Source of the DNA: Panicum virgatum | Lineage: Eukaryota > Streptophyta > Magnoliopsida > Poales > Poaceae | Direction: 5' to 3' | DNA: 64,000 nt | Assembly: GCF_016808335.1 (NCBI RefSeq) | Contig: NC_053148.1 | Location: forward strand, 16,272,433 to 16,336,432 | Shown: positions 2,105 through 54,100 of the stretch, in pieces | Numbering within the stretch: position 1 is the stretch's first letter | Layout: every line of letters starts with the position of its first letter | The notes under the pieces: model-generated | Told to the model about the DNA's origin: nothing | Seen by the model: only the letters and a program-made list of their open reading frames with translations | Databases searched by the model: none | Made by a program: the position numbers and the translations under genes

Positions 2105-2801
2105 TGTTGGAGTAATGGGCTTGGCCCATTTATTCTAAAGCATTAAAAGAATTTAAAGCCCACTATTAATGCTAGGGAATCAATGTTTAATTCCGTACCG
2201 GGAATTGAGGAGGATCTCAACCGACTTAAAAGGTGGACTTCTTGTACACCACTTGTGAAGCCGGTAAGAGGAGGACGGTGAACCACACGCGCGCGCGCGC
2301 TCGCTCGCCTCTGTAATTAATGGCCATAACCGCATCACCTAAATGACTCTGATCAGGTTTTTGGGTAACGCTTTGGCGTGACTGCTCAAAAATACTAAGG
2401 CTTTGCCCGATTGTACGACTACTTCCTGGTGGACGAGCCGAACGACTACGTCGACTACATTCTGGTGGCCGAACGACTACGTCGACTACATCTTGGTGAC
2501 CGTTCGTGGGACTGCACTGCGAACTTCTTCCTGCACCGATTTAGTTCGACTACTTCGACTGAGGCCAACCGAGTAGATGTCTACTCCAGTTGGTAACAGC
2601 GCAGCCAATGCCTCCGGCAACGGCCCCGCTTTAGGGTACTCCCTGAAACTTTGGTTATTTATATTGTTTATGCTTATATGTGTGATAAGTATAAACATAT
2701 TCACATGTTTTATTTTACTCCTTAAAGTCATAGAAATATTGCTAGTTTATACATTTAATTTTGGAATTAAAATATACCGAAAATTGCCTAGATTTCTAAC
2801 A
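2105..2801 (+). repeat. 5' LTR of the copia element (697 bp, internally deleted)
   Basis: Compared with the 3' LTR it lacks the counterparts of 6617-6820 (about 204 bp) and 6864-7089 (about 226 bp). Breakpoints fall at about 2311 and 2353 and show only 1-2 bp of shared sequence. The second deletion removes the TATA box. The remaining sequence is almost identical to the 3' LTR, and both contain a doubled block around GACTACGTCGACTACAT. Confidence 0.9.
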
Positions 2802-2814
2802 ATCCAAAAACCTG

Positions 2815-4350
2815 ATGATGTTAATAGGTTTTCGGTATCTAGCTTTGCTGCATCAATCAAACCATCACCTTTTTGATGGTTCAAATTACAAACGTTGGCA
2901 AGAGCGGCTTATACTGTGGTTAACACTATCGAGAGTGATCCATGTGAAAGAGGGTAAGCCTGAACAATTCTCTCCAGAGGAAGGGAGTGCGTTCGATGAG
3001 GCTGATATCCTCTTTCGAGGCTTGATCATTAGTGTTCTCGGTGATAACCTGGTGGATTCTTATATCCGGCTGCCAACTGGCAAAGCTTTGTGGGATGCTC
3101 TTGAGGCTCAATATGGAGTATCTGACGCCGGGAGTGAGTTGTATATCATGGAGCAGTTCCTTGAGTACAGGATGGTCGAAGACCGTTCTGTAGTGGAACA
3201 GGCTCATGAAATACATACTCTGGCAAAAGATCTCAAAAATTGCAGCAAAAAGTCCCCATGTGTGTTACCCAATAAGTTTGTGGCTGGAGGTATAATCTCT
3301 AAGCTGCCACCTTCTTGGAGGGACTTTGCTACTTCTCTAAAACATAAGAGACAGGAGTTCACAATAGATGGACTCATAGGGACTCTTGATGTTGAGGAGA
3401 AGGCGAGAGCAAAGGACATACGTGGGAAAGGAGTTGTTGGTGCTTCAAGTGCCAATCTTGTTCAGAAGAACAACTCCAACAAGAACAAGAAAAAGCCACC
3501 GCAGAACCAACCAAAGACTAACAAGACAACCACTTTTAAGAAGAAGAAGAAGACGGGAGCTTGCTATGTGTGCACTAGTACGGATCACTTTGCTGCAAAG
3601 TGTCCGAACCGCAAAGGCAACAACTCCGCCAACATGGTTATTAGCGAGCCTGGAGGAACTTCGGGGTACGGTAATTTATTACCTACTGTTCTTTCAGTCT
3701 TTGGTTCACCCGAGTGGTGGGTTGATACTGGTGCTAATATTCATGTTTGTGCTGATGCTTCTTTGTTCTCTTCTTACCAGACCGGCGGGACTTCCTCCTT
3801 GCTGATGGGGAACGGATCACATGCGCGTGTTCTTGGTGTTGGTACGGTAAATCTGAAGTTTACTTCGGGGAAGACCATGCAGCTGAAGAACGTGCAGCAT
3901 GTCCCCACCATCAAGAAGAATTTAGTCAGCGGCTCTCTACTGTGTAGAGATGGTTTCAAATTAGTCTTTGAGTCCAATAAATGTATCTTGTCTAAGTTTG
4001 GTACTTTTGTTGGAAAAGGTTATGAAAGCGGAGGTTTGTCCCGTCTTTCTTTGTCAGATGTTTGTAATAAAATTGCATACAATGTTATTAACGTTGATGA
4101 AACAAATGTTTGGCATTCGAGGCTTTGTCGCGTTAATTTTGGTTGTATGATGCGCTTAGCTAATTTGAGCTTAATTCCAAAGTTCACTTTTGTCAAAAAT
4201 TCTAAGTGTCATGTATGTGTTGAATCAAAACAAACTCGTAAGCCTCATAAGATCGCGGAGGCAAGGAGCTTGGCACCCTTAGAATTAATTCATTCCGATT
4301 TGTGCGAAATGAATGGAGTGTTGACAAAAGGTGGTAAAAATATTTCATGA
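2815..4350 (+). pseudogene. copia gag, protease and start of integrase
   Basis: This 511-residue frame holds the Gag domain (FDGSNYKRWQERL near the start), a lysine-rich stretch, a CCHC zinc knuckle (CYVCTSTDHFAAKC at about residues 248-261), the aspartic protease site region WWVDTGA, a pre-integrase zinc region with HSRLC and CHVC, and the first integrase acidic residue in LIHSDLCEMNG. It ends at a TGA at 4348-4350 caused by a one-base loss shortly before; the integrase frame goes on in another phase. The start shown is the first Met in frame and lies very close to the LTR, so the true Gag start is uncertain. Confidence 0.85.
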
Positions 4351-4787
4351 CTTTGATTGATGATAGTACTAGATTTTGTTACATCTATTTGTTGAAGTCA
4401 AAATATGAAGCTTTACACTACTTTAAAATCTATAAAGCTGAAGTAGAAAACCAACTTGAGAGAAAGATCAAAAGAGTTAGGTCAGATCGTGGTGGCGAGT
4501 ATTTCTCAAATTTATTTACTTTATTCTGCGAGGAACATGGTATTATTCATGAGAGGACGCCTCCCTATTCACCTCAGTCAAATGGGGTTGCCGAAAGAAA
4601 GAACCGCACTCTAACGGATTTGGTTAACGCCATGTTAGATACAGCGGGACTTTCCAAGGAATGGTGGGGTGAGGCTATATTGACTGCATGTCATGTCCTA
4701 AACCGTGTTCCTACAAAGAATAAAGAGATAACTCCTTTCAAGGAATGGGAGAAGAAAAGGCCAACACTGTCATACTTACGTACATGA
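4347..4787 (+). pseudogene. copia integrase core, truncated
   Basis: The frame continues the integrase core with IDDSTRF, the second acidic residue in RVRSDRGGEY and the glutamate in SPQSNGVAERKNR, so the D,D,E triad is readable across the frameshift. It then reads WWGEAILTACHVLNRVP and stops soon after PTLSYLRT. The region that normally links integrase to reverse transcriptase is absent, and the frame after the junction is shifted. Confidence 0.85.
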
Positions 4788-4788
4788 A

Positions 4789-5844
4789 AAGTTTGATAGA
4801 ACTTTGACCTCTGCCGGCTTTGTTGTGAACGAAGCTGACAGATGTGTGTACTATCGCTATGGTGGGGCTGAAGGAGTGATTTTGTGCTTGTATGTGGATG
4901 ACATACTGATTTTTGGGACTAGCCTTAATGTGATTAAGGAAGTCAAAGAGTTTTTATCTCAAAATTTTGAGATGAAGGATCTGGGAGAAGCTGATGTTAT
5001 CCTTAATATAAAGCTGGTAAAAGAGATCAATGGTGGGGTGATTCTTACACAGTCTCACTATGTGGAGAAGGTGTTAAGTCGCTTTGGTTATAGTGACTAT
5101 AAACCTGTCTCAACACCATATGATGCCAGTTTAATTCTTAGAAAGAACAAAAGGATAATGCGAGATCAGCTGAGATATTCTCAGATCATTGGTTCATTAA
5201 TATATTTAGCGAGCGCTACAAGACCTGATATCTCGTTTGCTGTAAGCAAACTGAGCCGGTTTGTTTCAAACCCGGGAGATGATCATTGGAAGGGTCTTGA
5301 AAGAGTAATGCGCTATCTGAAGGGGACAATGAACTATGGAATTCACTACACCGGGTACCCAAGGGTACTAGAAGGGTATAGTGATTCAAATTGGATTTCT
5401 GATGCTGATGAGATAAAGGCCACAAGTGGATATGTGTTTACACTTGGTGGTGGAGCTGTTTCCTGGAAGTCTTGCAAGCAGACCATCTTAACGAGGTCAA
5501 CTATGGAAGCAGAACTCACAGCATTAGATACCGCCACTGTTGAGGCTGAGTGGCTTCGTGAGCTCCTTATGGACTTGCCGATAGTTGAAAAACCGTTACC
5601 GGCAATCCTAATGAACTGTGACAATCAAACGGTAATTGTCAAGGTGAATAGTTCAAAGGATAACATGAAGTCATCTAGACATGTGAAAAGGCGGTTGAAA
5701 TCTGTCAGAAAATTGAGAAACTCCGGAGTTATAGCCCTGGACTATGTTCAGACGGCTAAAAATCTGGCAGATCAGTTTACAAAGGGTCTTTCACGAAATG
5801 TGATAGACAATGCATCTATGGAATTGGGCTTGAGACCCACGTGA
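4789..5844 (+). pseudogene. copia reverse transcriptase (C-terminal part) and RNase H
   Basis: The frame enters in the middle of the reverse transcriptase palm and includes the catalytic motif YVDDILIFG. RNase H follows with GYSDSNW, STMEAEL and a C-terminal [16 protein letters not shown] box typical of plant copia elements. The fingers and the first catalytic Asp region are missing because of the internal deletion at about 4788, so no active polymerase can be made from this copy. Confidence 0.88.
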
Positions 5845-8065: not shown

Positions 8066-8415
8066 GGCCCTGTTTAGTTCTCTTTACATGTAAAAAAAAA
8101 TTTGCGACGGAATCTTACCAATTTGAAGTACTAAATGAAGTCTATTTACAATTTTTTTTACACAGATGGGTTGTAAATCGCGAGACGAATCTAATGATGT
8201 TAATTAATTCATGATTAAGCAATAATTAACGAATGGTTACTGTAGCATCACTGTTGCAAATTATGGATTAAGTAGGCTCATTAGATTCGTCTCGTGATTT
8301 ACAGCCCATCCATGCAAAAAGTTTTGTAAATAGATTTCATTAAATACTTTAAATTAGCAAGATTCCTTCGCAAAATTTTACGTTTTTACGTTTACAGGGA
8401 GACTAAACAGGGTCC
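8066..8415. mobile_element. MITE inserted in the LRR region of the NLR relic
   Basis: About 350 bp with terminal inverted repeats: left GGCCCTGTTTAGTTCTC, right (inverted) GGACCCTGTTTAGTCTC. The interior is partly palindromic, with ATTCGTCTCG-type motifs on both arms and a central ACTGTAGCA. It has no coding capacity. The LRR frame is open on both sides, which sets the borders within a few bases. The target duplication is ambiguous (CTTTG versus CTTGG). It resembles Tourist/Harbinger-type grass MITEs, but the superfamily is an inference. Confidence 0.75.
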
Positions 8416-9544
8416 TTGGACACCACAGTATAGATAGTTCGTACAGGGCAGGGAAGCAGCACTGTGCTTTTAATGCCTCCTCCCCAGTTTCGAAACCACC
8501 TGTTGTAGTCCGCAGCTCCTCTAGTTTGGGCATACTCCACAGCGTGAGGAACTTCAGCGAAGGAAACTCTGAAAGTCCTCGCACGTGCTTCAAGTTAGGC
8601 AAATAACTTAGATTCAGTCGAGTAAGAGACATGAACTGACAGGGACTGGTTTGCTTGGATAGTGTGTCCTCACAATAAGAAGAATCATTGTGCTTCATCA
8701 TCCACCATGGAAAACAAGTACCTCTGTAACCTTTGATTTTCAAGTCCATAATTTGCTTTGGTGGTTCAAGTGCGCTCAGCACACCCTGCTCTTGCTCCAC
8801 ATTTGGTGCCAACTCTTTATCTGTATCACTCAAAGACCAGTTCAGCTCCAGTTCCTGTATGCGGTTCTTACGCTTCAAGCAAGCCTTCTCAGCGTCACAC
8901 GGATCCTTCACATACTTAAGGTTTGTAATGACCATTTCACCACTTAGCATATCAAGATTTTCAAGCTCAGATATTCTCGCATCATCTCCACCACACCCAA
9001 CAACAAACAAGCCCAGCTGTCTTAAACGGGTCAGCTGCCCAATACCTGATGGCAAGCAGAGCAGTTTGGTGCAGTCTGCTATGTTCAAAACTTCAAGCCA
9101 TTTTAACTTCCCTATATCTTTAGGCAACTCCACTAGCTCACTGCAATTCTCAAGATTTAGACATTCCAAAGTACTAGCCCTAGTAACCCATGGAGGTAGC
9201 ATATTAACTTTTGTTCCAGAAAGGTCAAGAGTACGCAGCATAGGACAGGACAGTGTGCTTGGCAGGTCCTCCAACTGTATGCAATAAGCTAAGTTGATTA
9301 TCTGCAAGTTGCTGAACTCCCCGGTTAGTTCTGACGGCAACTGTTTCAGAAATGAACAACCAGATACACGAAGGGCCCTTAGGTTTCTAATTTTACAGGT
9401 GGTGCTTGGTATCTTAACTTTTTCACAGTAGTGCAGATTGAAGGATTGAAGGTCTCGACAATCACCAATTGACAGAGGTAAACTCTCAAGCTCCGTAGCA
9501 TAATTCAGCTCTAGAGTTCGTAGCTTCTTAAGCTTGCCAATGGA
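8416..9544 (-). pseudogene. NLR relic segment 3: central LRR region
   Basis: The frame stays open from just after the TAG codon to the MITE border. It contains many LRR units of the LxxLxxLxLxxC type, including LECLNLENCSELVELP and LEVLNIADCTKLLCLP, and the linker LGLFVVG common in grass R1-like NLRs. The frame then reads into the MITE and stops at 8378-8380. In the NLR family the LRR region determines effector or guardee specificity. Confidence 0.85.
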
Positions 9545-9547
9545 CTA

Positions 9548-10109
9548 TGGTAACATAACAAGATCTTTGCATCTGATAAAATGAAGCGACAGCAAGTTCC
9601 AGCAGCATGAGATAGCTTCTGGAATTCTTTTGCAACTAAGATTATGAATTTCAAGATATCCAAGATACTCAAACTTCAGTATGAATTGAGGAAATTTAGT
9701 GCTATTTGTGTAGTCCAGAACAATACTGCGGATACAGGAACTCTTCTTAACTGGTTTATCAAATCTTGGATTACCCTCAGATACAAACAGAGCATGGACC
9801 TTGTAAAATGAGCCCCGGTCAACTTTCTCTGCGCATGAAGTCAAAGATAAGTATCTGCACCTCTGAGTATTATTCGGCAGACTAGTCCTCACTTCATCCG
9901 ATAGTATTTGTCGAGTGAGATCATGTATCAAATCATGCATCTTACATACTAGATGATTAGTATACCAGTGGCTAGAAGGATCCTGAAGAAAGCCGACTTT
10001 TACAACAGAATCAAAGTAGTCACGTCCGATATCTTCTGGTTGCACTCCATCCATTGAATTGATGAATCCATGGGCAACCCATTGTGCAATCAAGCCATCT
10101 TTGTAGATT
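9548..10109 (-). pseudogene. NLR relic segment 2: winged-helix (MHD) part and first LRRs
   Basis: After the one-base frameshift the homologous frame continues with the winged-helix region, including KMHDLIHDL, the MHD motif that in NLRs controls nucleotide-dependent activation. It then runs into LRRs such as FEYLGYLEIHNL. A TAG codon in an LP-x-SIGKL repeat context at 9545-9547 ends the segment. The flanking frame stays open on both sides of the TAG, so it is a point nonsense mutation and not an exon end. Confidence 0.85.
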
Positions 10110-11435
10110 TCATAGCCCCTTCGGGAATATAGAGCAAAACATAAAGCACTGCTTCAGTACATCTGGCAATTGAATGAAGCTCAATTTCAAGGAAGCAAAC
10201 ACTCTATCTTTTATACTCTCATCTTTCCATAAATCACTGTCTCTTATGGCTTTCCAAAAACTTATTTCCTTCTTTTCACAGAGGATACCTCCAACAGTCC
10301 TGATTGCTAGAGGCACGCCACTACATTTGTTTAGGGTCTCTTTTCCAACCTTTATGAACTCTGAGGCTAAATCTTCCTCCTTCCACCCTGAACACTTTAG
10401 GAACAATTCCCAGCTATCAGATTCCTCCAAGAACGCCAACTCAAGGATATAGCTTGAATTCACAAGTTCTGCAACCTTCTTATCACGAGTAGTTAGCAAT
10501 ATTTTGCTTCCTGGTGCACCATTCTTTAGGTGCACCATGAATTTTTCCCAGTCAAGCTTGCCCGGATGCCATGCATCATCCAGGACAAGAAGAAACTTCT
10601 TGCCCTCTAACTTGTTCGAAATTTCATGGAGCATGTGTTCTGGGGCATGAAGAAGCGAATTTTGCTTAGTGATAGCTTGAAATAGCTTGCCGATAAGCTT
10701 CTTCTCATCGAATGATTCTTCAGACACATGGACCCAGAATACCTTATCGGCGAAGTGCTCCTTTATTTTGCTATCATGGCAGACATGTTTGGCCAAAGTA
10801 GTTTTTCCAGACCCGCCTAGTCCGACAATAGAAACTATCGTTGGGCCATCCACTCCTTCATTAGCTTCTAAAATCTTGCATATAATTTTACCCTTCTCCT
10901 CATCTCTTATTGGTATTTTTGAGTCTTCAACGTTACCCAACATGGAGAGCTCGCCAGTTGTGCTGTTTCTGTTCCCAACAGGACGATCCGCTGGTAAATT
11001 ATTCCTTATAGTATTGGCATCACTTCTTTGCTTCACAATCGCAGCAAATTCCACCTTGATTGTCTTCATCTTACGGGCCACCTTGCATCGGAAGGCAAAT
11101 GATTTGGGTTTCGCACAGAAGCCACAGCCAGGTATAAGTTGCTTTTTAACATCGCTTTCCATCTTGTGCTTCTCAGCTTGTAGCTGGACTTCATAGAGTA
11201 AATCATCTATATCATAAGCAATGTTTCTCAATTTGTTCACCCATGGCGGCGGTGTGCCACCCTCTATTGCTCTGTCACGAAGCAATTCTGTAATATCATC
11301 ATGTATATCCTTGAGCTCACAGAGATCTTTCTTTACACCAGTTATGGAAGCAAACTGACTGGCTATCAGTGAAACTAGCTTGGCGCCTGCGACCTTCAAC
11401 ACTCCTGAAACTAAAGCAGCCTCCATTCCAGTCAT
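10110..11435 (-). pseudogene. NLR relic segment 1: coiled coil plus NB-ARC domain
   Basis: This 441-residue frame begins with MTGMEAALVSGVLK, the usual Rx N-terminal opening. An EDVID-region equivalent (YDIDDLLYE) lies at residues 74-82. The P-loop GLGGSGKTT is at about 205-213, kinase 2 FLLVLDDAW at about 281-289, RNBS-B GSKILLTTRD at about 309-318, GVPLAI at about 373-378, and RNBS-D CFMFCSIFPKG at about 430-440. All nucleotide-binding motifs look intact, so this part could have bound ATP/ADP. It ends at a premature TGA created by one extra base straight after RNBS-D. The start was chosen because the next upstream frame is closed and the N-terminus matches the family. Confidence 0.9.
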
Positions 11436-11682
11436 GCTTCAAAAGTTCTCTTTCGGACTAGCCCCTGTGAATGAAATTACAACACGAGCAAATTACTATA
11501 CTGAGTATTAAAAAATTAGTACTAATCTGATGTTGTCAGCGCTGCTGCATCATCTACTCAGGAATAAAATTGTATGACGGAAAACAAGTGAAATTAATTA
11601 ACTTGTGCTGCCTGGAGATTTCATTTCATATATTCGAAGTCAATAATGCATGCATATGAGAATATTTTGGGAAACAGATCTA
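11436..11682. other. Upstream region of the NLR relic
   Basis: On the minus strand a TTCACAG acceptor-like site lies about 30 bp before the NLR start codon, suggesting a 5' UTR intron. No promoter element can be assigned with confidence. Confidence 0.35.
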
Positions 11683-38216: not shown

Positions 38217-38221
38217 ACTAC

Positions 38222-39823
38222 TGTAAGGATCGATAGCACAAGAGGGGGGGGGTGAATTGTGTCTTTTTCAAATTTCTAAAGCGATATAAATCAACCTTAG
38301 CCTATGCAAAAACTAGAAGGCCCAAAATCACAAACCGGTCTAGCTAGCTACTCAAGATATGAGAGATAAAACTAGTGTTAGCCTAAGCAAGGTAGAGCTA
38401 AGCTATGATCTCTAATGTCAAGCACATGAAAATATAGAAAGAATGTAAATGCTTGAATGTAAATAGGGATCAAGAGACAACCGGATTTTTTCTCGTGGTA
38501 TCGATGTGTTGGCACACACCCCTAATCCACGTTGTGACACTCACTAAGAGTCTTGTCACCTCCCAAGTCACCAAGACAAGGGTGCTCACTAAGAGTCTCC
38601 GTTCGCCGTCCCGGCATGGTGGAGCTCAAGCCACGTACACTCTTCTTCTCCGGGCTCCCACAATTCTTGGCAAGCTCCGAGAGAATCACCCCCGATCACC
38701 AAGATCGCCTAGGTGATGCCAATCACCAAGAGTAACAAGCTAGAACCTTCACTTGAGCAAGAACCGATCACCAAGAGCGGATGCACACAAGCTTCTCCCT
38801 ACTCAAGTCCTTAGCCTTACTTCTTGGATGATTGAATGATCAATTGAGTGGAATTAAGGCTCTAAGTGTCTCTCAACTATAGAGTGTGTGTATGAATGTT
38901 GCCTGGTGTCAAGAGAGAGTAAAATGACCCATTGGAGGGGGTATATATAGGCAGCTCACAAGTATAGAGCCGTTGGAGAAAAGCTGCCAGAAAAAGTACA
39001 CAACGCCGGTTAATCCGACGGTCCCTCCAGAGTAATCGCCGGTTCAATCGATGAATGTAAACAACCTCTTTGAAAAACTGGCCGTTATTGCACAGGCAAT
39101 TTGACCGACGTATCATCGGTTTAACCGGTGAATGTAGCTGTCCACTGATTAACTGAAAAACCAACTCTCTGGACAACTACACCGACGTTAACTCAAATCC
39201 ATCGTCGGTTTAACCGGTGTGTATGAGCTCAGAAACCCCAAAAAAACCAATGTTCTGGACAACAGCACCGACGTTAGTTTTGAACAGCGTCGGTTAAACC
39301 GGTGAATACAGTGTCTAGGCTTCAGTGACTGCGTTTAACCGACGTATAGAAAAGCAGTAGCGTCGGTTAAACCGGTGATAAGACTTTTTCTTGATTTTGT
39401 CTGTTTTGATTTCAGTCTCGAGTGAAATCCAAACTTTCTTGAGATATGAGTTGAGTAACACTTGTTTGAGCTTCCAATAACCTGAGTGACCAATGTGAGC
39501 ATCCATTTTTGATTGACCATGTCCATGCTTAAGTTACTTGGCCTTAACCCCTCTTAATAGTGCGACCTCTACAAAACTATAAAACCTATACTAACCTAAG
39601 TGTTCTTCTCAACCTTGCGACACTTAGGACTAGAAAGATCCTTAGACTTGTTATATACTTGAGTTGATAACCGAGATCGCCTTTTTGAATAATGAAATTG
39701 AGGGGCCTCTTTAACATATGATCCAATGAGCGATAAGATTTCATTAAGCTTCACAAACTCATTAGTCACAATAATGGTTGTCATTAATCACCGAAACATA
39801 CCTTGAGGGCCTAGATGCTTTCA
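38222..39823 (-). repeat. 3' LTR of the Sirevirus-like element (1602 bp)
   Basis: Very similar to the other LTR over its whole length, with scattered substitutions and a few indels. It contains the U3 hairpin array (39003-39384) and, on the minus strand, a TATA box CTATATATAC (about 38940-38949). Confidence 0.92.
39003..39384 (-). promoter_or_regulatory. U3 hairpin array in the 3' LTR
   Basis: About five units of an ACCGACG...CGTCGGTTTAACCGGTG pattern can each fold into a short hairpin, or form the palindrome CCGGTTTAACCGG. They lie just upstream of the LTR TATA box in the direction of transcription. The same array is in the 5' LTR at 49366-49740. Confidence 0.75.
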
Positions 39824-39824
39824 A

Positions 39825-39837
39825 TCTCCCCCCTTTT
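39825..39837 (-). other. Polypurine tract of the Sirevirus-like element
   Basis: On the minus strand AAAAAGGGGGGAGAT directly precedes the 3' LTR, the normal plus-strand primer site. Confidence 0.85.
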
Positions 39838-39990
39838 TGGTGATTGATGACAACACAAATAATAACTTAAACGAGTAAAGCAAGAAAGATTAACGCACAA
39901 AAAGAAAAGCACAAAGAGAACGAAGGCTCGAACAGAATCCATAGACATGTCATAAAGAGCAACACGCACAAGAGTCTAATATACATGTAC

Positions 39991-40206
39991 ATGAACTAAA
40001 AGCCAATGAAGATACACCAATCATGTCCTGGCATCTACGAGCACTCTGCTAGCTCTACCCTCCCCCTGACTCCAACTCCTTTGTGACTCCCCCTAATGTC
40101 TATGAACTAAAAGCCAATGAAGATACACCAATCAAGTCCTGGCATCTACGACCACTCTGCTAGCTCTACCCTCCCCCTGACTCCAATTCCTCTGTGACTC
40201 CCCCTA
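39991..40206 (-). repeat. 111-bp tandem duplication with extra polypurine tracts
   Basis: Copies at 39991-40095 and 40102-40206. On the minus strand each contains AGGGGGAG-like purine runs similar to the main polypurine tract. Repeated polypurine tracts before the 3' LTR are known from Sireviruses. Confidence 0.75.
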
Positions 40207-40536
40207 ACTCTCTCCCCCTTTGGCATCAAAGCACCAAAAAGGCAAGCTACGGGTCCTGCTGTCGCGGCACGGCGAGGAAGCGGTCCAGGTCGTCGCCGTC
40301 ATCGTCGGACGGAGAACCCTCGGTGAGGGACATGAGCTGCGGGTCCGAGCTGACTGGAGGTGTAGCTGTGCCATTGCAGCTCTGTCTGCCTGTCTGCCCC
40401 TCCTCCGGTCTTATGGTGCAGTGGGACGGTAGACTGGGAACCAGGGAGCCTCATCCTGGCGATAGACATCACTGATCGGCGAGTCGGCGGGCACGATCAT
40501 TGAACAAATATAACTGATCTAGTGTGCATAAGGTAA

Positions 40537-41804
40537 CTACCGCACGACCCCCATCCCGTCAGTGATCACATCCTCGATCTCAACCAAAATAAAGTCCACA
40601 ATGTCAAAAGGCTCATGAGTGAGGATGTGGAGTAGTAGCAGCTGCTGCAGTCCTGTGAACCCCTCTGGGTAGCCACTCCTCGGTAACAATGTCCTCCAGA
40701 GGGCCATGTGAACTGTGTACGCCTCTGGGGTCAGCAAGCTGGGGACTCTGGCATACGAGGCTGGGAATGGCTGGCGGAAGCACTGAGAGATCACCTCGTG
40801 AGAAGGTGCAATCCCGCCAATCATCGCCCTGCGGGGTGGATCTGCGTCTCCGTATACTCTGTCGTGCAGGGAGACATCGACCAAGTCGACTCCAAGGATT
40901 CCTGCAATCGTCGCCCTCGTCAAACCAAAGACCTGGCCTCCAAATATGAAATGCACGGCTCTGCGCTCGGGAGCAATCCAAGCTGTGGCATAGAACACTC
41001 GGACCCAGTCCTCAATGTACCTGTTCTGCCCCATCTCAATCAGTCTAGGCAGCCCTCTAAAGTGAGAAAAGTGCTCTCTGACATCTGCCCCTCCTGCTGC
41101 AGTCCTCAGAGAAACCCAGTCGAGCACCCGATGAGGGAAGATCCTGTGACCCCTCCTCTAATAGGTCTCATAGAAACTGGCCTGAAGCAGTGTCCAAAAT
41201 CTAGTATCAATCCTGCTGTCACAGCCTACTGGGAACCAATCCTCCTCTGTAACGCTCCATCTCAGCCTCTTGACCTTTGCTGCTTAGCCTTGGTCAAGTT
41301 CTGGAGAAGCACCCCAGGCTCCAGACGGACAACAGTGTCCATCCTGAATACGGCACGCTCGGCCTCTTGGGCCTCTGCTCTGCGAGCTGCTGCTGCTGCT
41401 GCTGTGGACCTGCGAGACTCCTGTGGCAAGTGACCGCCTCGAGTCCTCGGTCCTGAGCGACGCTCGATCGCTGACGGAGAGCCTCCCTTAGATGACTGCA
41501 GAGAGTGGCTAGACCGTCGTGGAGTAGGAGAACTCTGCCCCTCTGACTCAGCTGATGGCTCCCCCTCAGACGAATCTCTCTCTGTCTGCTGTGCCGTGGC
41601 CCTGGTGGCCCTGCCTACTCTACCTCTGCCTTTGCCCCAACTGGGCGGCTCCCTGACCCGGAACAGACGAGCACGCCCCAAAGCCTGCTCCTCGGCGGCC
41701 TTGGCCACCGACTCTGCCCTCTCGGCCTCCTTCTCTGCGCGGGTCCTCTTGCGGACCAACTTCTCGACCACGACCTCCTTCCCTTTCCTCTTCTCGCGAC
41801 CCAT
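40537..41804 (-). pseudogene. Accessory ORF downstream of pol in the Sirevirus-like element, broken
   Basis: On the same strand as gag-pol. It starts MGREKRKGKE at 41804 with a Lys/Arg/Glu-rich helical first part and a Ser-rich linker. The second part is folded-looking, with RYIEDWVRVFYATAW and FGLTRATIAGILG, resembling a plant-specific domain found in retroelement accessory ORFs ('putative plant transposon protein'). A frame change near 41262-41290 and a TAG at 41158-41160 break it. The place matches the env-like ORF of some Sireviruses, but I see no signal peptide or membrane anchor, so an envelope role is not supported. Confidence 0.6.
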
Positions 41805-42183
41805 ACTGACTGCGGGAGCGATGAACGCGTTGCGGGTGTGCGAGAATGGGTGCGGCTTTTGGCTTTGGCAAATCATCGAGTAGTTGGCATGCGTGGCGTG
41901 GAGGTGCGGAGGGACACTGGCAATGCGAGCTGCGGTAAAGCGTGGGTGTCGGCGTGCATGCAGGCGTGGGTGGCACGCGAGCTTTGGTGTAGTGGTGCGT
42001 GAACGGCGGTGGTGCGGCGGCGAGCAGAGGTGCAGCGCGCGGGGTCGTGGCGAGGTGGCGCGCGGGCGGCGCGAGGCGCGGCGGCGAGCAGAGGTGCAGC
42101 GCGCGGGGTCGCGGCGTGCAGGCGGCGGCGTGGAAATTGTTCGGGCGCGAGTGGAGAAGAGAGCCGGGGGAGCGGGCAAGAGA

Positions 42184-42191
42184 CATATATG
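42184..42191 (-). promoter_or_regulatory. TATA-like box upstream of the accessory ORF
   Basis: CATATATG on the minus strand, about 30 bp downstream of the internal hairpin array and followed by a pyrimidine-rich leader. It resembles the LTR promoter layout. Function is inferred. Confidence 0.35.
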
Positions 42192-42217
42192 ACATGTGGG
42201 CCCGCGACTTTTCTTAG

Positions 42218-42534
42218 CACCAGTTGATCCGACGCTTAGGTTTTGAACATCGGTTGAATGTGTCGGTTTAGTTGACCCGAGACTTCTGTAAAAGACTAAA
42301 AGTACATCTGAACACCGGTTGAACCGATGATATGAATATTGAACTCATCGTTTGATTACTGATATCGTCGGTTGATCTTTAGGTCAGAAATTTAATTCTA
42401 TCACCGGTTGATCCGACGCTCTGAATTTTTCATACGCCGGTTGAATGACTGAAATAAACTTTTGCTGAGGCAGAACTTACCAACACCGGTTAAACCGATG
42501 GTTATGATCCATAAAACGTCGGTTTAACCGGTGA
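42218..42534 (-). repeat. Internal hairpin array between pol and accessory ORF
   Basis: At least four units with ACCGGTTgAtCCGACGC / CGTCGGTTTAACCGG-type arms, the same motif as in the LTR U3. They are more diverged from each other than the LTR units. The array lies 5' of the accessory ORF on the minus strand. Confidence 0.75.
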
Positions 42535-43167
42535 ACCCAGAAAACCTCTCTCAGCTCACTCTTTTATGCTAAGTCCAATAGACTTATAAGATACAACTAA
42601 ACACAAGTCAATGGACTAGCATAGGTGACTTTACCCCTCAAAATGCCATAGATGGCACACTAGCCTAGTAGTTTTTCTTTTTCAAACACAAGAGGGAAAA
42701 CCACGAGAGACAAAATGCCAAATTAAAATGTATAAACCATGTCATAGGAATATTGAAGATAGAGAACTCCAAACTCATCATGACATGATTCACTAGGTAA
42801 TAACACACCCAACACTTTGCTTTTTTCACTTCTCATGAATTGAGAGCTTGCATATGAAAACAAGTCTCATTTTCATCAAGTGAGCTCCTTTGTGACACTT
42901 ACGCATGCAATGATGGTGCAAGCTATAAACACATGCAAGAGAAGATAGACATGAAGTGCACATCTATATGACAGAAAATGCATAACATGAATTGAAGCTA
43001 TACTTGTCAAGTTTGAACCCATGGGAAGCTTCTTCATGATGAGCCTTTCTTCAAGCCTAGAGGAAAACGAGGAGACCACCACCTCTAGCTAAACCCATGC
43101 TCATCACTATCTTACCATGGTTAAACAAGTGCCTATTATGTATGCATTTTCTATATGACACGGCAAC

Positions 43168-44829
43168 TTACATGACGTTTGCCGCATCTAAAATATTGAG
43201 CTCATTCCTTAGCCTAACAAAGGTACTCTCATCTAATGGTTTTGTGAATATATCCGCCAATTGCTCCTCGGATCTCACACCTTGAAGAGATATGTCTCCT
43301 TTAGCTTCGTGATCACGCAAGAAGTGATGGCGAATATCAATGTGTTTTGTGCGAGAGTGTTGAACCGGATTTTTGGCAATTTTTACGGCACTTTCATTGT
43401 CACAAAGGAGTGAGATCCTATCTAGTTTCACACCAAAGTCCAAAAGGGTTTGCTTCATATATAGGATTTGAGCACAACATGCACCGGCCGCTATATATTC
43501 CGCTTCCGCGGTGGACAAAGCCACGGAATTTTGCTTCTTACTCAACCAAGAAACTAGAGAACACCCAAGCAAGTGGCAACCCCCGGAGGTACTCTTCCGA
43601 TCCACACGACTCCCGGCAAAGTCCGAGTCCGAATATCCCAAGAGGTCTAAACTAGCACCATTGGGGTACCACAAGCCTATGCTTGGAGTGTGCTTGAGAT
43701 ACCGAAGGATCCTGTTCACAGCCGAGATGTGTGATTTCTTTGGATTATCTTGAAAGCGGGCACACAAGCATACACTAAACATTATATCGGGCCTAGATGC
43801 GGTAAGGTAAAGCAAAGACCCTATCATAGAACGATAGAGAGATTGATCAACCGGTTTACCGTCCACATCCAAGTCGAGATGCCCATTGGTTCCCATGGGT
43901 GTCTTGATCGGCTTGCATTCATCCATCTTGAACTTCTTCAAGATATCTTTAGTGTATTTTTCTTGATAGATGAATGTCCCTTCCTTCAATTGTTTGACTT
44001 GAAAGCCAAGGAAGTAGGTCAATTCGACGATCATGGACATCTCTAATTCCCTAGACATCATGGTAGCAAACTCATGGCTTAGTGAATCATTAGTTGAGCC
44101 AAAGATAATATCGTTAACATAAATTTGACAAATAAAAAGATCCCTGTTGACGTCTTTTGTGAACAATGTGGTGTCCACCCTCCCGATCTTGAAGCCTTGC
44201 ATGATTAGGAAGTCACGAAGCCTCTCATACCAAGCCCTTGGAGCTTGTTTGAGCCCATAGAGTGCCTTGTGCAATCTATAAACATGGTTAGGATTCCTCG
44301 GATCTTCAAACCCGGGAGGTTGCTCAACATAAACAAGTTCATTAATAAAGCCATTTAAGAATGCACTCTTCACATCCATTTGATATAACTTGAGATTATG
44401 ATGAGAAGAGTAAGCAAGAAGTATGCGTATAGCTTTCAGTCTTGCGACCGGAGTAAAAGTTTCATCAAAATCCAAACCTTCGACTTGAGAAAACCCTTTT
44501 GCCACAAGTCTTGCTTTATTGCGTACCACCACCCCATGTTCATCTTGCTTGTTTCGGAAGACCCACTTAGTGCCGATGATGTTCTTGTTTTTCGGAGGAG
44601 CTTCGAGGACCCAAACTTCATTGTGGGTGAAGTTGCTCAATTCTTCTTGCATGGCCATCACCCAATCCGAGTCCTCAAGTGCTTCCTCTATGCTAGTGGG
44701 TTCAACACAAGAAACAAACGAGTAATGTTCGCAAAATGAAGCATGTTTTGAACGAGTTCTCACTCCCTTGGAAGGACTACCAATGACTTGATCAATTGGA
44801 TGATCCTTGGAGATCTGTCCATGCTTCAC
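43168..44829 (-). pseudogene. Sirevirus-like reverse transcriptase and RNase H
   Basis: A 553-residue frame open from SKDHPIDQVIGSPSKGVRTR, the usual linker, to the end. It includes NEVWVLEAPPKNKNIIGTKW, KARLVAKGFSQVEGLDF and KLYQMDVKSAFLNG. The metal-binding motif reads YVNDIIFG where the family has YVDD, so a catalytic Asp is replaced by Asn. RNase H has GYSDSDFAG, STAEAEYIA and a C-terminal LADIFTKPL. The frame is intact, but polymerase activity is unlikely. Confidence 0.9.
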
Positions 44830-46405
44830 TAGCGGTAGATTCTTTGAAGCTTGTTAGAGTGGATCATGGATGGCTTGTGCTTGTGGCGGAACAATTTGCT
44901 CATCTTGATCTTGTACTTGGGGGTGTTGGCGTTGGAACACTCACTTGTGATGGTGGATTATCTTTTTCTTTGTGTTCATCCACTTGGGGTGCCGAGGAGG
45001 TGTTTGGTGTAGACGAGGAAGGTCCTCCCCCTTGATCATTGCCTTCATGCACCTCTTCCGGCTTGATATCCCCAATGGACATTTTCTTCAAAGCTTCTTC
45101 AATCTCCTCATCACCTACATTGTCATTGCCAATAACCTCCTCTTGGGAGCCATTAGATTCATCAAACTCCACATCACAAGTTTCTTCAACTAACCCGGAG
45201 GTTTGATTGAATACTCTATATGCTTTGGAGTTTGATGCATAACCAAGAAAGAATCCTTCATCACATCTACTCTCAAACTTATCGAACCTTTTCTTCTTAT
45301 AAATGAAGTATTTGCAACCAAAGACTCGAAAGTAGGAGATGTTTGGTTTCTTCCCGGTGAGGAGTTCATATGGTGTTTTCTTGAGGAGTCGGTGGAGATA
45401 CACCCGGTTGGATGCATGTCAAGCCGTGTTGATTGCTTCCGCCCAAAACCTCTCGGACGTGCCATAATCATCCAACATTGCTCTTGCTGGAGTGATCAAT
45501 GTTTTGTTATTTCTTTCCACCACTCCATTTTGTTGAGGCGTGTAGGTGGCGGAGAACTCATGCTTGACACCCTCTTCATCGCACCATTCTTCAATCTTGA
45601 TATTCTTAAACTCGGTGCCGTTGTCACTCCGGATCTTCACAATTGGGGAGTTGTACTCTCATTGAGCTCTTCTTGCAAATGTCTTGAAGACTTCCGGAGT
45701 TTCAGTCTTATCGCCTAGAAACATGACCCAAGTGTAACGTGAAAAATCATCAACGCTCCTGTATGTGGTTGGACCAAAGAGATCCATGTGAAGTAGCTCG
45801 AGCGGCTTGGAGGTAGACAACATCGTCTTGATGGGTTGATGTGTTGCAACTTACTTTCCAGCTTGACATGCACTACATAGTTTGTTCTTGTCAAAGGTGA
45901 CATCCTTCAAGCCGGTGACCATCCCTCTCTTGTGGGCTTTCTTGAGGTTGCTCATGCCAATATGAGCAATTCTTCTATGTCAAAGCCACCCAAGAGACGA
46001 CTTGGTGAAGAGGCATGTCATGGGGCTTGTTTGCTTTGAAGAGAAATCCACCAAGTAAATATTGTCATGTCTAAACCCCGTGAATACCAATGACTTATCT
46101 TCTTCAAAGGCTACTACAACACCATTCTTATCAAAGGTACACGTTAGTCCAAGATCACATAATTGAGCAATTGAAATAAGATTAAAACTAAGTGATTCTA
46201 CAAATAAGACATTAGAAAAGGATAAATCTTTAGAAATTGCTATTCTACCCAAATCTAAAACTTTCCCCCTTGAGTTATCACCATAGGTGACATGTTCATG
46301 ATCGCCGGGGTCTTCAAGAGAGGTGAACATGCTATCATTGCCGGTCATGTGATGAGAGCAACCGCTATCAAATACCCAATGTTTTCCACCGGCTTTGTAG
46401 TTCAC
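44830..46405 (-). pseudogene. Sirevirus-like protease and integrase, with several stops
   Basis: Begins with the protease motif WVFDSGCSHHMTGN. The pre-integrase zinc region follows (HRRIAHIGM, CSACQAGK), then integrase with HMDLFGP, VDDFSRYTW, IRSDNGTEF and PQQNGVVERNN. In-frame stops lie at 45980-45982, 45851-45853, 45659-45661, 45419-45421 and 44854-44856, and a frame change lies at about 44920. A short loss next to the first acidic motif (near 45758) is likely from comparison with the family. It is clearly non-functional. Confidence 0.85.
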
Positions 46406-46434
46406 CTACACAAATGAGAATCATTTTTGAGTTT

Positions 46435-48524
46435 TTAGAACCCAAATGAGCTTTGAGCCTTGCACATGTGTGACAAGAGCTTTGGGGACCCAAAGTTGCT
46501 TGGGAGCTTCTTCTTTGCTTCCTTTGTGAGCTTGCCAATGAATTTGGCCTTCACCTTGCCCTTTACCTTACTCAAAAGAAAATGGTTATTTTGATGCATA
46601 GATGAGTAATTTTTAGGTAAAGTAGGGAGAGGGCATGATGGCAAGGGACACTCCCTAGTGTGGTGCCCGGTGACTTGGCAATATTGACAATATGATCCAA
46701 CTTCTTTGATGAAGCTAGTCTTGATCTCCGGAGAATGAGTAGTGCCTTTGTTTGGCTCCGGAAATGAACCAAGACCTCTCTTGCCATAGTCACGAGCATT
46801 GTTGAAGAAAATTTCCTTGTGGATGTATTCTTCTCGTGAGAGCTTCTCCACACTAATTTTGAGGCTTGCCACTTGATCTATCAATTCCTTTTCCCTAGAG
46901 GGAGCAAGCTTGGACAAAACATTAGTAGCATTTGCATCAATGAGTAGGTCATCACATGAAGTAGAAGCATTGACCTTTTCAACATTTTCATTGATAGAGT
47001 TCTCAAGACTCTGGTCAATTGCTTCATAGGCAAACTCAAGCTCTTGATATTTGTGAGCCAACTCCCTATGCTCTTGCTTGAGCTTTTTATGATTCTCTTC
47101 AACTTGCTTAGCAAGTGCAAGTGACTCATGGTGCTTTTTGAGCAAGTCATTGTACTCGCCAAGCAAATCAGAGTGAGCTAGCTCTAGCTTGGCATCAGTG
47201 CTCTCAAGACACTTGACCTTGCCCTTTTCCCTCTTGATGACGGATGTATACTCATGATGAGGTTAGCAAATTCATTAGGATCAAGCTCATCATCACTATC
47301 ATTATCCTCGATGCATACCTTTGTGTTACCTTTCACCATGAGGCACATAGGAGGATGAGGTAGTGATGGTTCATCATTGGTAAGGGCAATGGTGATGATG
47401 TCTTCTTCTTCATCAATTGATTCTTCACTTGATGAGACATCCGTCACCCACTCTTGTTTTTCTACCAAGAAGCTTCTCTTGGTGTTGCCATTTTTCTTTG
47501 GGAAGAGCTTGGTCTTCTTGTCATGGCTCTTCTTCTTCCCAAGTTTCTTGTTTTTGTTCTTCCTTTCATGTTCATCATCATCGCTTGAATCATGGCGATG
47601 CTTGCTCTTGTTATCCTTCTTTCTTTTGTCCGGCTTGGAGCAATTTGGAGAGATGTGACATTTTTCTCCACAATTGTAGTAAGTTTTGTTCTTGACATCT
47701 TCCCTTGGCCGGAACATTCTTCTTTTAGGTTCAAAGTTGTAACCCTTCTTGTTGATCTTGTCACTCAAGCGTGTGAACTTTCTCATCATGAGAGCAAGTT
47801 CTCCATCATCTTCATCATCGGATGAGCTTTCATGACGATCATCTTCTTCATTGCTTGAGCTTGATTCTTGCTTGATCATCTTGAGCTTACGGGGTTTGTT
47901 TACCTTGGTCTTGAGAGCGATTGATTTGCTTGTAGTTGGCTCTTCGGTCATACCAAGAATTCCCATTTCATGAGCGCGAATCTCGCCCACAAGCTCTCCC
48001 ACTTCCACCACCTCAAGATTCTCCTTTTGAAGCATAGCATTGATGATGTTATACTTTGGCTTCGGAAGGAGTATGAGTATTTTCCGGTTGATGGAGCCAT
48101 TGTCAATTTTGGACACATCAAGTGCATTAATGTCCTTTACAATGATATTCAAGCGAGAATACATTTTATTGCAATTTTTATGAGCTAACATTTTAAAAGC
48201 ATCATATTTAGCTCTAAGCACGTGATATTTTTGCTCTCTAACTTTGGTGGAGCCTTCATGAATTTCTATGAGTTCTTTCCAGATATCACATGCTAGGTCT
48301 ATGCCGTTAACTCTAGCAAAGACCTCTCTAATGGCTTCAAAAATTGCATTTCTAGCCTGAGCATTCCATTTTAGTTGTTCGGAGGTTAGATTTCCGGTGA
48401 ACCCGGTTTTGGTTGCTATCCAAACTTCGGGGGCAATTGCATCAAGATATGCGCCCATGCGAACTTTCCAATAAGCGAAGTTCTTGCTCTCGAAGTGAGG
48501 AGGCGAACCACCCATCCTAGCCAT
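46435..48524 (-). pseudogene. Sirevirus-like Gag, frameshifted
   Basis: The first 446-residue frame starts MARMGGSPPHFESKNFAYWK and has the capsid region, a KRK/Ser-Asp-rich segment and a zinc knuckle (YYNCGEKCHISPNC) whose first Cys is Tyr. A one-base loss at about 47253-47258 shifts to the second frame (47166-46435). That frame has a long coiled coil (YNDLLKKHHESLALAKQVEE) and a second zinc motif (CQYCQVTGHHTREC). Another frame slip lies near 46510-46530. The long Gag with coiled coil is a Sirevirus mark. Confidence 0.88.
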
Positions 48525-48566
48525 GGCTCTAAGCGGTGAAGCTTAATGATCCAAATAAGCAACTCG

Positions 48567-48578
48567 GCTCTGATACCA
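48567..48578 (-). other. Primer binding site
   Basis: TGGTATCAGAGC on the minus strand, two bases after the 5' LTR. It is complementary to the 3' end of initiator tRNA-Met, the standard primer of plant copia elements. Confidence 0.92.
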
Positions 48579-48580
48579 AT

Positions 48581-50160
48581 TGTAAGGATCGATAGCACAA
48601 GAGGGGGGGTGAATTGGGCCATTTTCAAATTTCTAAAGCGATATAAATCAACCTTAGCCTATGCAAAAACTAGAAGGCCCAAAATCACAAACCGGTCTAG
48701 CTAGCTAGCTACTCAAGATATGAGAGATAAAACTAGTGTTAGCCTAAGTAAGGTAGAGCTAAGCTATGATCTCTAATGACAAGCACATGAAAATATAGCA
48801 AGAATGTAAATGCTTGAATGTAAATAGGGATCAAGAGACAACCGGATTTTTTTGCCGTGGTATCAATGTGTTGGCACACACCCCTAATCCACGTTGTGAC
48901 ACTCACTAAGAGTCTTGTCACCTCCCAAGTCACCAAGACAAGAGTGCTCACTAAGAGTCTCCGTTCGCCGTCCCGGCGTGGTGGAGCTCAAGCCACATAC
49001 ACTCTTCTTCTCCGGGCTCCCACAATCCTTGGCAAGCTTCGAGAGAATCACCCCCGATCACTAAGATCGCCTAGGTGATGCCAATCACCAAGAGTAACAA
49101 GCTAGAACCTTCACTTGAGCAAGAACCGATCACCAAGAGCGGATGCACACAAGCTTCTCCCTACTCAAGTCCTTAGCCTTACTTCTTGGATGATTGAATG
49201 ATCAATTGAGTGGAATTAAGGCTCTATGTGTCTCTCAACTATAGAATGTGTGTATGAATGTTGCCTGGTGTCAAGAGAGAGTAAAATGACCCATTAGGAG
49301 GGGTATATATAGGCAGCTCACGAGTATAGAGCCATTGGAGAAAAGCTGCCAGAAAAAGTACGCAACGCCGGTTAATCCGACGGTCCCTCCAGAGTAATAG
49401 CCGGTTCAACCGATGAATGTAAACAACCTCTTTGAAAAACTAGCCGTTATTGCACAGGCAATTTGACCGACGTATCATCGGTTTAACCGGTGAATGTAGC
49501 TGTCCACTGATTAACTGAAAAACCATCTCTCTGGACAACTACACCGACGTTAACTCAAATCCATCGTCGGTTTAACCGGTGTGTATGAGCTCAGAAACCC
49601 CAAAAAAACCAACGTTCTGGACAACTGCACCGACGTTAATTTTTAACAGCGTCGGTTAAACTGGTGAATACAGTGTCCAGGCTTCAATGACTGCGTTTAA
49701 CCGACGTATAGAAAAGCAGTAGCGTCGGTTAAACCGGTGATAAGACTTTTTCTTGATTTTGTCTGTTTTGATTTGAGTCTTGAGTGAAATCCAAACTTTC
49801 TTAACATATGAGTTGAGTAACACTTGTTTGAGCTTCCAATAACCTGAGTGACCAATGTGTGCATCCATTTTTGATTGACCATGTCCATGCTAAAGTTACT
49901 TGGCCTTAACCCCTCTTAATAGTGCGACCTCTACAAAACTATAAAACCTATACTAACCTAAGTGTCCTTCTCAACCTATACTAACCATCCTTAGTCTTGT
50001 TATATACTTGAGTTGAATACCGAGATCTCCTAAATTGAGGGGCCTCTTTAACATATGATCCAATGAGCGATAAGATTTCATTAAGCTGCACAAACTCATT
50101 AGTCACAATAATGGTTGTCATTAATCACCGAAACATACCTTGAGGGCCTAGATGCTTTCA
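48581..50160 (-). repeat. 5' LTR of the Sirevirus-like element (1580 bp)
   Basis: Carries the U3 hairpin array (about 49366-49740) and a TATA box (about 49302-49312 on the minus strand). Near 49965-50040 it has lost or rearranged about 20-30 bp compared with the other LTR; otherwise the two are very similar. Confidence 0.92.
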
Positions 50161-50165
50161 ACTAC

Positions 50166-50682: not shown

Positions 50683-51113
50683 ATTGTCACCAGGGTTTTT
50701 TTACTGACCAGTGGGCTCAAACTGCCGGCCACCGGTAGCGGTTTATCGGATTGATTTGACCGGTTACCGGTTAAAACCGGTCAAATTCAAAATTAAATTC
50801 AAAATCGCATGTTCAACCGGTTCTGATCGGCTTACCGACCGGTTTGACCGGTTTACCGGTTCGGTTTGACCGGTTGCCGGTGTTTTAACCAAAAATTCCG
50901 ACAGTTTTAAAGTGGTTCCCCGGTGTGAAATAAATGAAAATTTTGGCATGAGCTATGCCCATATTAATGTAAAAGACCACACCAAAGCAACAATGGATAA
51001 TCATGCATACAAATACAATAGTAATAAGCGTGCATACAAATACCGAAGTCATAAGCGTGCATACAAATACCATAGTCATAATCGTGCATACACTGATACA
51101 TATCAATAAAAGT

Positions 51114-54100
51114 TCAACGTAGGAATGGGAAGACCCCCATTTGGGACGCGGTTTGGTATTCGGCAGTGGACATCACAGCGATACCTCGCACTCTAAGCAG
51201 CTCAGCCTTGTAGTGTTGCCAAGTTTGGCCCGTCCACACCGATGTTGTCTCACATTCCTGAACTAACATAGTGTAAAAATAGGGGTCTTCCCATTCGTAC
51301 ACCCATCTCGTCGGTGGTTGCATGCTGATGTCAGGTATGGGATAGTGAAAAGACTACGAGGTATCGCTGTAGGAGGAAGAAGAGTACTGTGGAGTGTCGT
51401 AGTCCGTCGGTCCAACCGTTGTCCTCTGCGATTGCGGTGCTCCATGGTCGGTGTCCTGAGTAGCATGTGTGAACTGAGTCTCCTCTGCAATCAACCATAT
51501 ATCATAATTAGTACTCATAGTCAGAAATATGTGTGCATATGTAGGTGCAATGTATACCTATGAAACGGACACCACGAGCACCACCACTACCAGCAGCAGC
51601 AGCACCACCACTACCACCACCACCACCACCACCACCACTACCACCACCGTGCACCAGCATCAGCACCGTCACTATCATCACCATCATCAGCTGAGCTGCT
51701 ATCTTTGGACTCCTGATACGCTCACCTTCGCCATCATCAGTCTCGGTGTCGCTGCTCACTGGTTTTGCTGCTGCTTTGCCTTTTCCTTTTTGACGCTTCG
51801 GGTCACCCTTCGTAGGCCCCTTCTGGAACTTCCTCTTCCCTAGGTGAGTGTCACCCACATGTGTACATGTCCAATCGCTGATGCAATCATCCCCCGTAGC
51901 CTCACGTAGATCTGAGAGGTTTATTTGATCTCTGACAATATGGGATAGGAGAGGGACGTCTCCGTCATCATCATCCTCGTCCAGAACTGGAGCCCGGTTA
52001 GATCTACCATATTCCATCTATTCCCACACTGGATTATTCTCATCATAGAAAGAAAGATGGGCCAGCTGGTCAATGAAATCACCTTCTTCACACATCGGTG
52101 GGCCGGAGACCTCCTCAAGTCGCAGACGAAGGTTGTAGTTGACATAGACAAGCTTGTTAAGTTTCTTGTGTGACAACCGATTGCGAACCTTTGTATGCAG
52201 CAAGGCAAAAGTACTCCAGTTCTGCTCGCATCCACTGGACGAACAACATTAAGAAACAAGCCGCATGGCAAGGTACTGCAGCTTTGGTGTGCTTGATGCG
52301 AACATCATCCACCAGGACGCTGCATGTGCAACCAAGTATGTAAGCAATATATTCGAATAGAGCAAAAAACAATATCATACGGAATAACTCCTACATGGGG
52401 ATGTCCTGGGGTCCGTCGCCATTTTCATTGCCATTTCACTGCCAAACTCGCCAACCTTCTGACGAAATAGGTCAAGCTCCTGCAATGCCTACACGACGCT
52501 CTGGAGATCCGTCATGCGCTGAAATGTATCCTTGAGTCTACGAAACATTTCTTGAGTTGGATCCATCGTATATGAATACCTCGGATTTAGGATGGCAGCT
52601 GCAAAATATAAATCACTTCAAATAAGCATAATGTCAATAGAGCTTAAAAATATATGACTCGTATAGTCTTACCTGGACCCACATATGTGCCTATGAACAC
52701 ATCACGCAACCTACTGTCCACAAGGTTAAGATACTCCATCAGAGTGGACACATTTGTTCCAAAGAAGGACTGCAGCTCCCGTCTCGTAGTTTGGTAGGCC
52801 ATCACGAGTTCGCACATGTTGGGCCGCTTGTCCTGATCAGCGAAGTGAAGAAACTTGTATATTGGTTGAACTGTGTCGATGATATATTTCAATCCGTCCC
52901 ACCACTCCATACTTGAAAACCTGGCATTAGTAAATCTACCATCTTCGGTATCCGCCCATTTGCTTTGTACGAACTCTGTAGATGCCATCCACTGCATGAA
53001 ACGATCATGTTTCCGATAGATGCTCTCTAGGAACATGTAGTTGGTTCCAAATCGAGTGGCATTCCACTTGACCAACTCACCACCGATTGCGTTCCTCATC
53101 ATTGTATTCAACTGACCATGATTGTGTAACCAATTTGAAATTCGCTTGCACTGCTTGGTCGTAATAGCATGTTCGGGCCTTTGAGCTATATCCTTCAACA
53201 TCAAATTGACGGTGTGTGCTAGACAAGGTGTCCAAGCAATGTGTTCATACACCTCGCTTAGTCCCTTGCATGCTTTCTTGTAGTTCGAGCCGTTGTCGGT
53301 GACTACGTGCACGACATGCTCCGGTCCAATCTCCTCCACCACCTTTCGAATCTCCTGTCAACATAAACAGAATATTTAGTAACATGTCAAAATATACTCA
53401 ATGTCAATGGAATATGTTTAGGGGCTACCTTGAGCAAATATGCGGCATCTTGAGTTCTTCCACTGGCATCAATAGACTTGTGGAACCACATGACCCCATT
53501 GCAATATATCAAAAAGTTGATGACACTCATCCTCGTCGGGCCAGTCCATGAATCACACATCAACGTGACGCCAAATAAGGGCCAGTCTTTCTGAAACTTT
53601 ACGTACCTCGTCTTCAAGTCTTGCTCGTTCTGATCAAGGTACTTGCCATCAATGTCCCGTCCAGTGGGTGATGCAATACCTTCACCTGCAACCATATGAA
53701 AATCATGAGATATAGGAATGTAAGCTCATAGGTGTCATTCCAATGAAAGAAAACTTACCCCACTTCTGTGTCTCCCTGACCGCGCTGACAAAGTATGGAC
53801 TGTCAGCCTGTCTTCCAAGTACTCCCGCAATATGGAAAAACTTTGACCAAGCTTTACCAATAGCTTCCTTTGCATTCCTACCCTTCTGCGTCCAGGAGCC
53901 TGTATCAATCCTTGGTTGCATCATTCCTCTTCTTCCACCGACTGCCAAGTTATAATCCTCCACCGCAGGACTCTCCCTCTACGAAGTTGCCCTTCGAAAC
54001 ATCCACTGCATAGCATTCCCCCTCGTCGAACCACTACCCCCTCCATGCTCGTATGCACCTCCTCTCTGTTCCACCCCCCGTCGGTACTCTACTTCCGCTC

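Follow-up and report, generated by a model that had tools for sequence, protein, structure and literature searches.

The 64,000-base stretch of Panicum virgatum contig NC_053148.1 analysed here (assembly GCF_016808335.1, positions 16,272,433 to 16,336,432; hereafter the window) carries a copia-type long terminal repeat (LTR) retrotransposon on the minus strand at 38222-50160. Between its pol gene and a third, accessory open reading frame (ORF) lies an array of palindromic boxes of the class found in the U3 regions of its LTRs. As judged from sequence, this internal array is probably the upstream part of a putative second promoter, dedicated to the accessory ORF. The features on which this interpretation draws are as follows.

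42218-42533, minus strand: internal array, nine box-like sites (at most three mismatches in the 11-base core)
42184-42203, minus strand: core block GGGCCCACATGTCATATATG
41805-42160, minus strand: C-rich leader, a putative 5' untranslated region (upper end estimated)
41262-41804, minus strand: accessory ORF, from start codon to first stop in the broken window copy (180 codons)
40537-41157, minus strand: open piece of the accessory ORF with a PF20167-like domain (weak, below the Pfam cut-off)
42561-43100, minus strand: linker from pol to the array, used as a comparison region
43168-44853, minus strand: pol frame (RVT_2, 4.1e-70)
39004-39377, minus strand: box array in the U3 of the 3' LTR
49366-49739, minus strand: box array in the U3 of the 5' LTR
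38942-38949, minus strand: TATATATA of the 3' LTR
49304-49311, minus strand: TATATATA of the 5' LTR

The box, CACCGGTT-AACCGACG, is repeated at 42218-42533, between the RVT_2 frame of pol and the accessory frame, the start codon of which occupies 41802-41804. Searching the window for CACCGGTTKAACCGACG with up to three mismatches returned 22 matches, compared with 0.05 expected by shuffling; the internal array (42218-42533) holds six of these and the two LTR arrays 14, leaving two elsewhere. The 11-base core, with up to one mismatch, was found 33 times (1.1 expected). A preliminary description of this DNA had stated that the motif fills the U3 of both LTRs upstream of the TATA box and recurs between pol and the accessory ORF, and both statements are borne out by these counts and by the TATATATA found downstream of the LTR arrays. 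Further copies were collected by using the internal array as a DNA query against the host assembly, which comprises 1.13 Gb in 627 contigs; of 893 candidates, 40 (the window and 39 others) were scored, and ~5.85 kb was fetched around each of the 39. All 40 match nearly the whole array, one other copy at 96% and the rest at 78-80%, and the array adjoins the same pol-side linker in each of the 39. Absence of the array from intact family members, which would have counted against the preliminary description, was not seen; it is present in all 39, though all were found by array similarity. An LTR array is also present in 29 of the 40 stretches, and box cores number 199 in the 40 internal arrays, 188 in the 29 LTR arrays and only 4 in the 205,455 other bases. 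The copy at 96%, L009 (C6:31882858-31888716), shares 98% identity with the window element over the pol-side linker, but its LTR array is only ~80% similar and the ORF domain found no match in it; it is possibly a mosaic of subfamilies.

A GGGCCCAC-TGTCATAT block stands directly after the array in the direction of transcription. The sequence downstream of the last box reads GGGCCCACATGTCATAT; in the element's orientation, CATATATG follows the array, at 42184-42191. Relative to mononucleotide shuffles, this region of the 40 copies is enriched in GGCCC/GGGCC (35 copies, 6.1 expected), GGCCCA (26, 0.8 expected), CATAT (38, 1.9 expected), TATA[AT]N (29, 1.9 expected) and runs of eight pyrimidines (38, 22.7 expected). 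Plant promoters have been described in terms of three classes of element, namely REG elements such as GGCCCA, TATA boxes and pyrimidine patches (PMC1832190); a literature search on the core sequence itself found nothing relevant. In the LTR, the TATA box is TATATATA in all 29 readable arrays of the 40 stretches, and it is separated from the last box by 54 bases, compared with 26 internally. The TATA-like motif and leader had been described as placed as in the LTR, of which the order holds and the spacing does not. The companion suggestion, that the internal promoter is modelled on the element's own U3, is not supported, since the internal and LTR arrays have the boxes alone in common and even the box centres differ (most commonly ATCAA, TTAAA, TTCAA and TTTAA internally; TTAAA, ATTAA and TTTAA in the LTR).

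Conservation within the array was assessed in 20 non-redundant copies of the 40. Boxes show a mean pairwise difference of 0.088 over all columns, compared with 0.148 for spacers; over columns never in CpG the values are 0.052 and 0.145, respectively. When majority-base frequency was used instead, a contrast between boxes and spacers as strong as the real one arose in 9 of 320 circular label shifts.

The length of the leader that follows the core block ranges from 203 to 880 bases in 37 copies, with a median of 414. In 23 copies it contains 48% C and 22% G, the corresponding values for the linker being 17% and 20%. Among 38 copies (excluding the window and L009), the fraction of bases alignable to the window copy is 0.87-1.00 for the array and 0.86-0.95 for ORF positions 40541-41780, yet only 0.14-0.18 for leader positions 41821-42020. 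The ORF nevertheless starts with ATG in 36 of the 37 copies in which its start was located (it was not found in L009, L021 and L033). Upstream ATGs are mildly depleted in 23 leaders chosen from the 37 (28 observed vs. 38.3 +/- 4.7, with 9 of 500 shuffles as low), whereas the reverse triplet CAT is not (118 vs. 113.6), and 16 of the 37 leaders have no ATG past their first 25 bases. The leader evolves far faster than the neighboring noncoding linker, with indels and with group-specific 3' ends that mostly abut GAG-ATG. Clustering by leader similarity gave groups of 30 and 6, with the window's leader alone, although inspection by eye suggests homology between the groups, with indels. Some leaders contain a short peptide stretch that resembles a PPR repeat by eye; no database match was made, and no claim of a captured host gene is advanced.

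The accessory ORF is open for 765-847 codons in 8 of the 37 copies with a readable start, while the window copy stops after 180. Among 14 non-redundant copies, differences at the first, second and third codon positions are 0.089, 0.048 and 0.26 in the downstream part, with an omega-like ratio of 0.15, and 0.123, 0.104 and 0.216 in the first part; on this codon-position evidence, the ORF is under purifying selection. The encoded protein matches PF20167 weakly (3.8e-07, 30.6 bits vs. a curated cut-off of 45), as do four relatives, and a lysine-rich start resembling MGREKRKGK is kept in three relatives at 49-54% identity. Hydropathy revealed no clear membrane segment (best 19-residue value 1.42 in an open copy and 1.36-1.59 in three relatives; no dedicated predictor was run), and a heptad-like stretch was seen by eye only. 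Five proteins gave no Pfam match to DUF1985 at E up to 10, and hhalign against relatives of a weak DUF1985 match returned a probability of 0.9%. Comparison by sequence with solved structures yielded no match of weight, and one protein searched against a viral contig collection had no confirmed relative. By prediction, the fold of the accessory protein may be somewhat like that of VANC21, a known plant anti-silencing protein.

The succession of box array, core block, C-rich leader, conserved start codon and selected ORF supports a second promoter. In the proposed mechanism, the internal array would provide a second RNA polymerase II promoter with its upstream activating region; transcription from this promoter would start near 42150-42160 and produce a short mRNA for the accessory ORF. 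The internal boxes would represent the same class of binding site as those of the LTR U3, and because this class occurs in both places, a single trans-acting factor could switch the LTR and internal promoters together. Such a factor might come from the host or be the accessory protein. The internal promoter proposed in the preliminary description is partly supported, by an anatomy that recurs in order across the family; its TATA box is non-canonical in 39 of 40 copies.

Several observations weigh against this interpretation. Canonical TATAWA is found internally in a single copy of 40 (0.3 expected), TATA[AT] is missing in 11 of 40, and the core block shows no special conservation in its aligned columns (0.125). 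Conservation of the boxes does not exceed that of the adjoining 62 bases of linker upstream (0.088 vs. 0.060 in all columns; 0.052 vs. 0.055 in non-CpG columns), and divergence over the entire array is about double that of the linker (0.120 vs. 0.062; 780 pairs). The depletion of ATGs is modest and was measured on leaders chosen by the author, from which L023, with an 880-base leader and 11 ATGs, was omitted. Finally, recruitment of every copy through the array biases any estimate of how regularly the array is present.

Among the other explanations, the one that best survives holds that the boxes are chiefly targets of an element-encoded, VANC-like and sequence-specific anti-silencing protein, the product of the accessory ORF, which would keep the LTR and the internal region free of silent chromatin and affect promoter activity only indirectly. 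This explanation, which is possible but doubtful, is compatible with the second-promoter interpretation and supplies a name for its factor. A fuller version, put forward tentatively and with similar reserve, takes the "ENV-like" third gene of grass Sireviruses to encode a VANC-fold, sequence-specific DNA-binding anti-silencing factor instead of an envelope protein. This factor would bind the palindromic boxes of the LTR U3 as well as those preceding the gene that encodes it. Internal promoter, factor and LTR would form a self-reinforcing switch, as with Tas of foamy viruses but based on the VANC fold of Arabidopsis. If true, the VANC-fold lead would join boxes and gene in one anti-silencing circuit and would account for the co-occurrence of linker boxes and the gene. 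No report of a VANC-like fold in Sireviruses was found in the open-licence literature.

Production of the accessory protein from the LTR transcript, by splicing or readthrough, with the array as a relic or as a sequence with a role in replication, is unlikely. Precedents exist in the ENV-like ORF of SIRE1, which is expressed via stop-codon suppression, and in splicing reported or predicted for other plant elements (PMC2829016; PMC3414828), and the GAG that commonly stands right before the start codon could suit an acceptor site too. However, the gap between pol and the ORF spans ~1.3 kb and contains both the array and a leader that cannot be aligned in most copies; a conserved acceptor region is therefore not apparent (no splice-site predictor was run), and conservation of boxes over spacers would be unexpected in a relic.

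It is also quite unlikely that the arrays act as DNA or RNA hairpins that feed small RNAs and silencing and have no promoter role. The internal array does fold better than shuffles (z of -2.7 as single-stranded DNA and -3.5 as RNA; -4.8 for LTR DNA), and palindromes of maize Sirevirus LTRs are hotspots of small-RNA mapping (PMC5311732), but any set of inverted repeats gives such a folding excess. Across 17 pairs in 20 sequences, the main hairpin shows one double change and 42 broken cells, and its first arm pairs with its own partner in 88% of cells and with two later boxes in 82% and 85%. The lack of covariation and the nearly equal pairing with other boxes fit many copies of one palindromic site and not a maintained stem. 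The earlier emphasis on hairpin structure finds no footing in these 20 copies, and the hairpin as a functional unit is unsupported. This explanation also leaves the leader, start codon and ORF unaccounted for. Origin of the array as a chance leftover of a nested solo LTR or of recombination, which the sameness of its boxes to those of the LTR might suggest, is most improbable, and a nested LTR relic was rejected, given that the boxes alone are shared, with other centres, and that the array keeps its position next to the linker in every one of the 39 other copies fetched.

An array of boxes before the third gene is not new in kind and is a further case of an arrangement published in 2010. Bousios et al. 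(2010; PMC2829016) described repeated motif (RM) boxes in 13 Sireviruses, beginning 200-400 bp into the LTR and upstream of the TATA box, with extra clusters upstream of ENV in nine. By their account, 77 of 79 linker boxes precede ENV and one box consensus per element serves both places; an internal ENV promoter was favored there but could not be conclusively identified, and the role of the third gene, its expression and the readers of the boxes were left open. The element described here shares with theirs the palindromic CGG-CCG boxes in the LTR and the second cluster 5' of an ENV-like gene, although the box type given there is CGGWTNAWCCG. In the present work, many copies of one family were compared, a core block and leader were described, and box conservation and ORF selection were measured. 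The additions to the published picture are thus tests of box conservation across many copies, together with the core block, the leader, the start codon, the selection on the ORF and the VANC-fold lead. No report of this array in this host was found in the open-licence literature.

Three other systems offer partial parallels in their published descriptions. Foamy viruses are likewise LTR retroelements with an LTR and an internal promoter, both under the trans-acting factor Tas (PMC8670036; PMC4929722; PMC7828637); for the grass element such a factor is only proposed. VANDAL21 of Arabidopsis, with its protein VANC21, also carries element-specific motif arrays in noncoding parts (PMC5735166; PMC10398659), and the putative likeness of the DNA-binding domain is by predicted fold only; VANDAL21 is a DNA transposon with an asymmetric motif, and no sequence-level link to the accessory protein was found. 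The palindromes of maize Sirevirus LTRs (Bousios 2016, cited in PMC5311732) similarly occupy a palindrome-rich, fast-evolving LTR region, although that work, as described in PMC5311732, concerns LTRs and small RNAs and not an internal array. Sireviruses make up a large share of some grass genomes, ~21% in maize (PMC3599292). The presence of many comparable copies in one genome renders the internal-promoter idea testable by 5'-end data.

The element as a whole is delimited by the following features.

38222-39823, minus strand: 3' LTR
48581-50160, minus strand: 5' LTR
38217-38221 (left) and 50161-50165 (right): target-site duplication ACTAC (5 bases)
47184-48542, minus strand: gag frame (Retrotran_gag_2, 8.2e-12)
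40060-40219, minus strand: five AGGGGGAG polypurine octamers, the multiple-polypurine-tract signature of Sireviruses

Sireviruses are characterized by multiple polypurine tracts and by palindromic CGG-CCG LTR boxes upstream of the TATA box (PMC2829016). The present element has both, with several AGGGGGAG tracts upstream of its 3' LTR and CGG-CCG-core boxes upstream of its LTR TATA box; its gag and reverse transcriptase match copia models, as in Sireviruses of the Ty1/copia type, and the cluster between pol and the third ORF uses the box type of its own LTR, as do RM clusters 5' of ENV-like genes. The terminal polypurine tract adjoining the LTR is AGGGGGGAG, one G longer than AGGGGGAG, and four of the octamers are carried by a 111-base unit duplicated in tandem at 39985-40206. 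The two LTRs diverge by 0.034 (K2P distance), which corresponds to an age of ~1.3 million years at an assumed substitution rate of 1.3e-8.

Outside the element, a short tandem array of ACCGGTTTGACCGGTTTACCG at 50816-50875 is box-like in appearance but does not match the box. The window further contains NB-ARC and LRR frames of a resistance-type gene (8378-11438, minus strand), a second copia element with gag and reverse transcriptase frames (2800-5844, plus strand), and a fragment of DUF659 (52644-53357, minus strand), a family known from hAT-type transposases.
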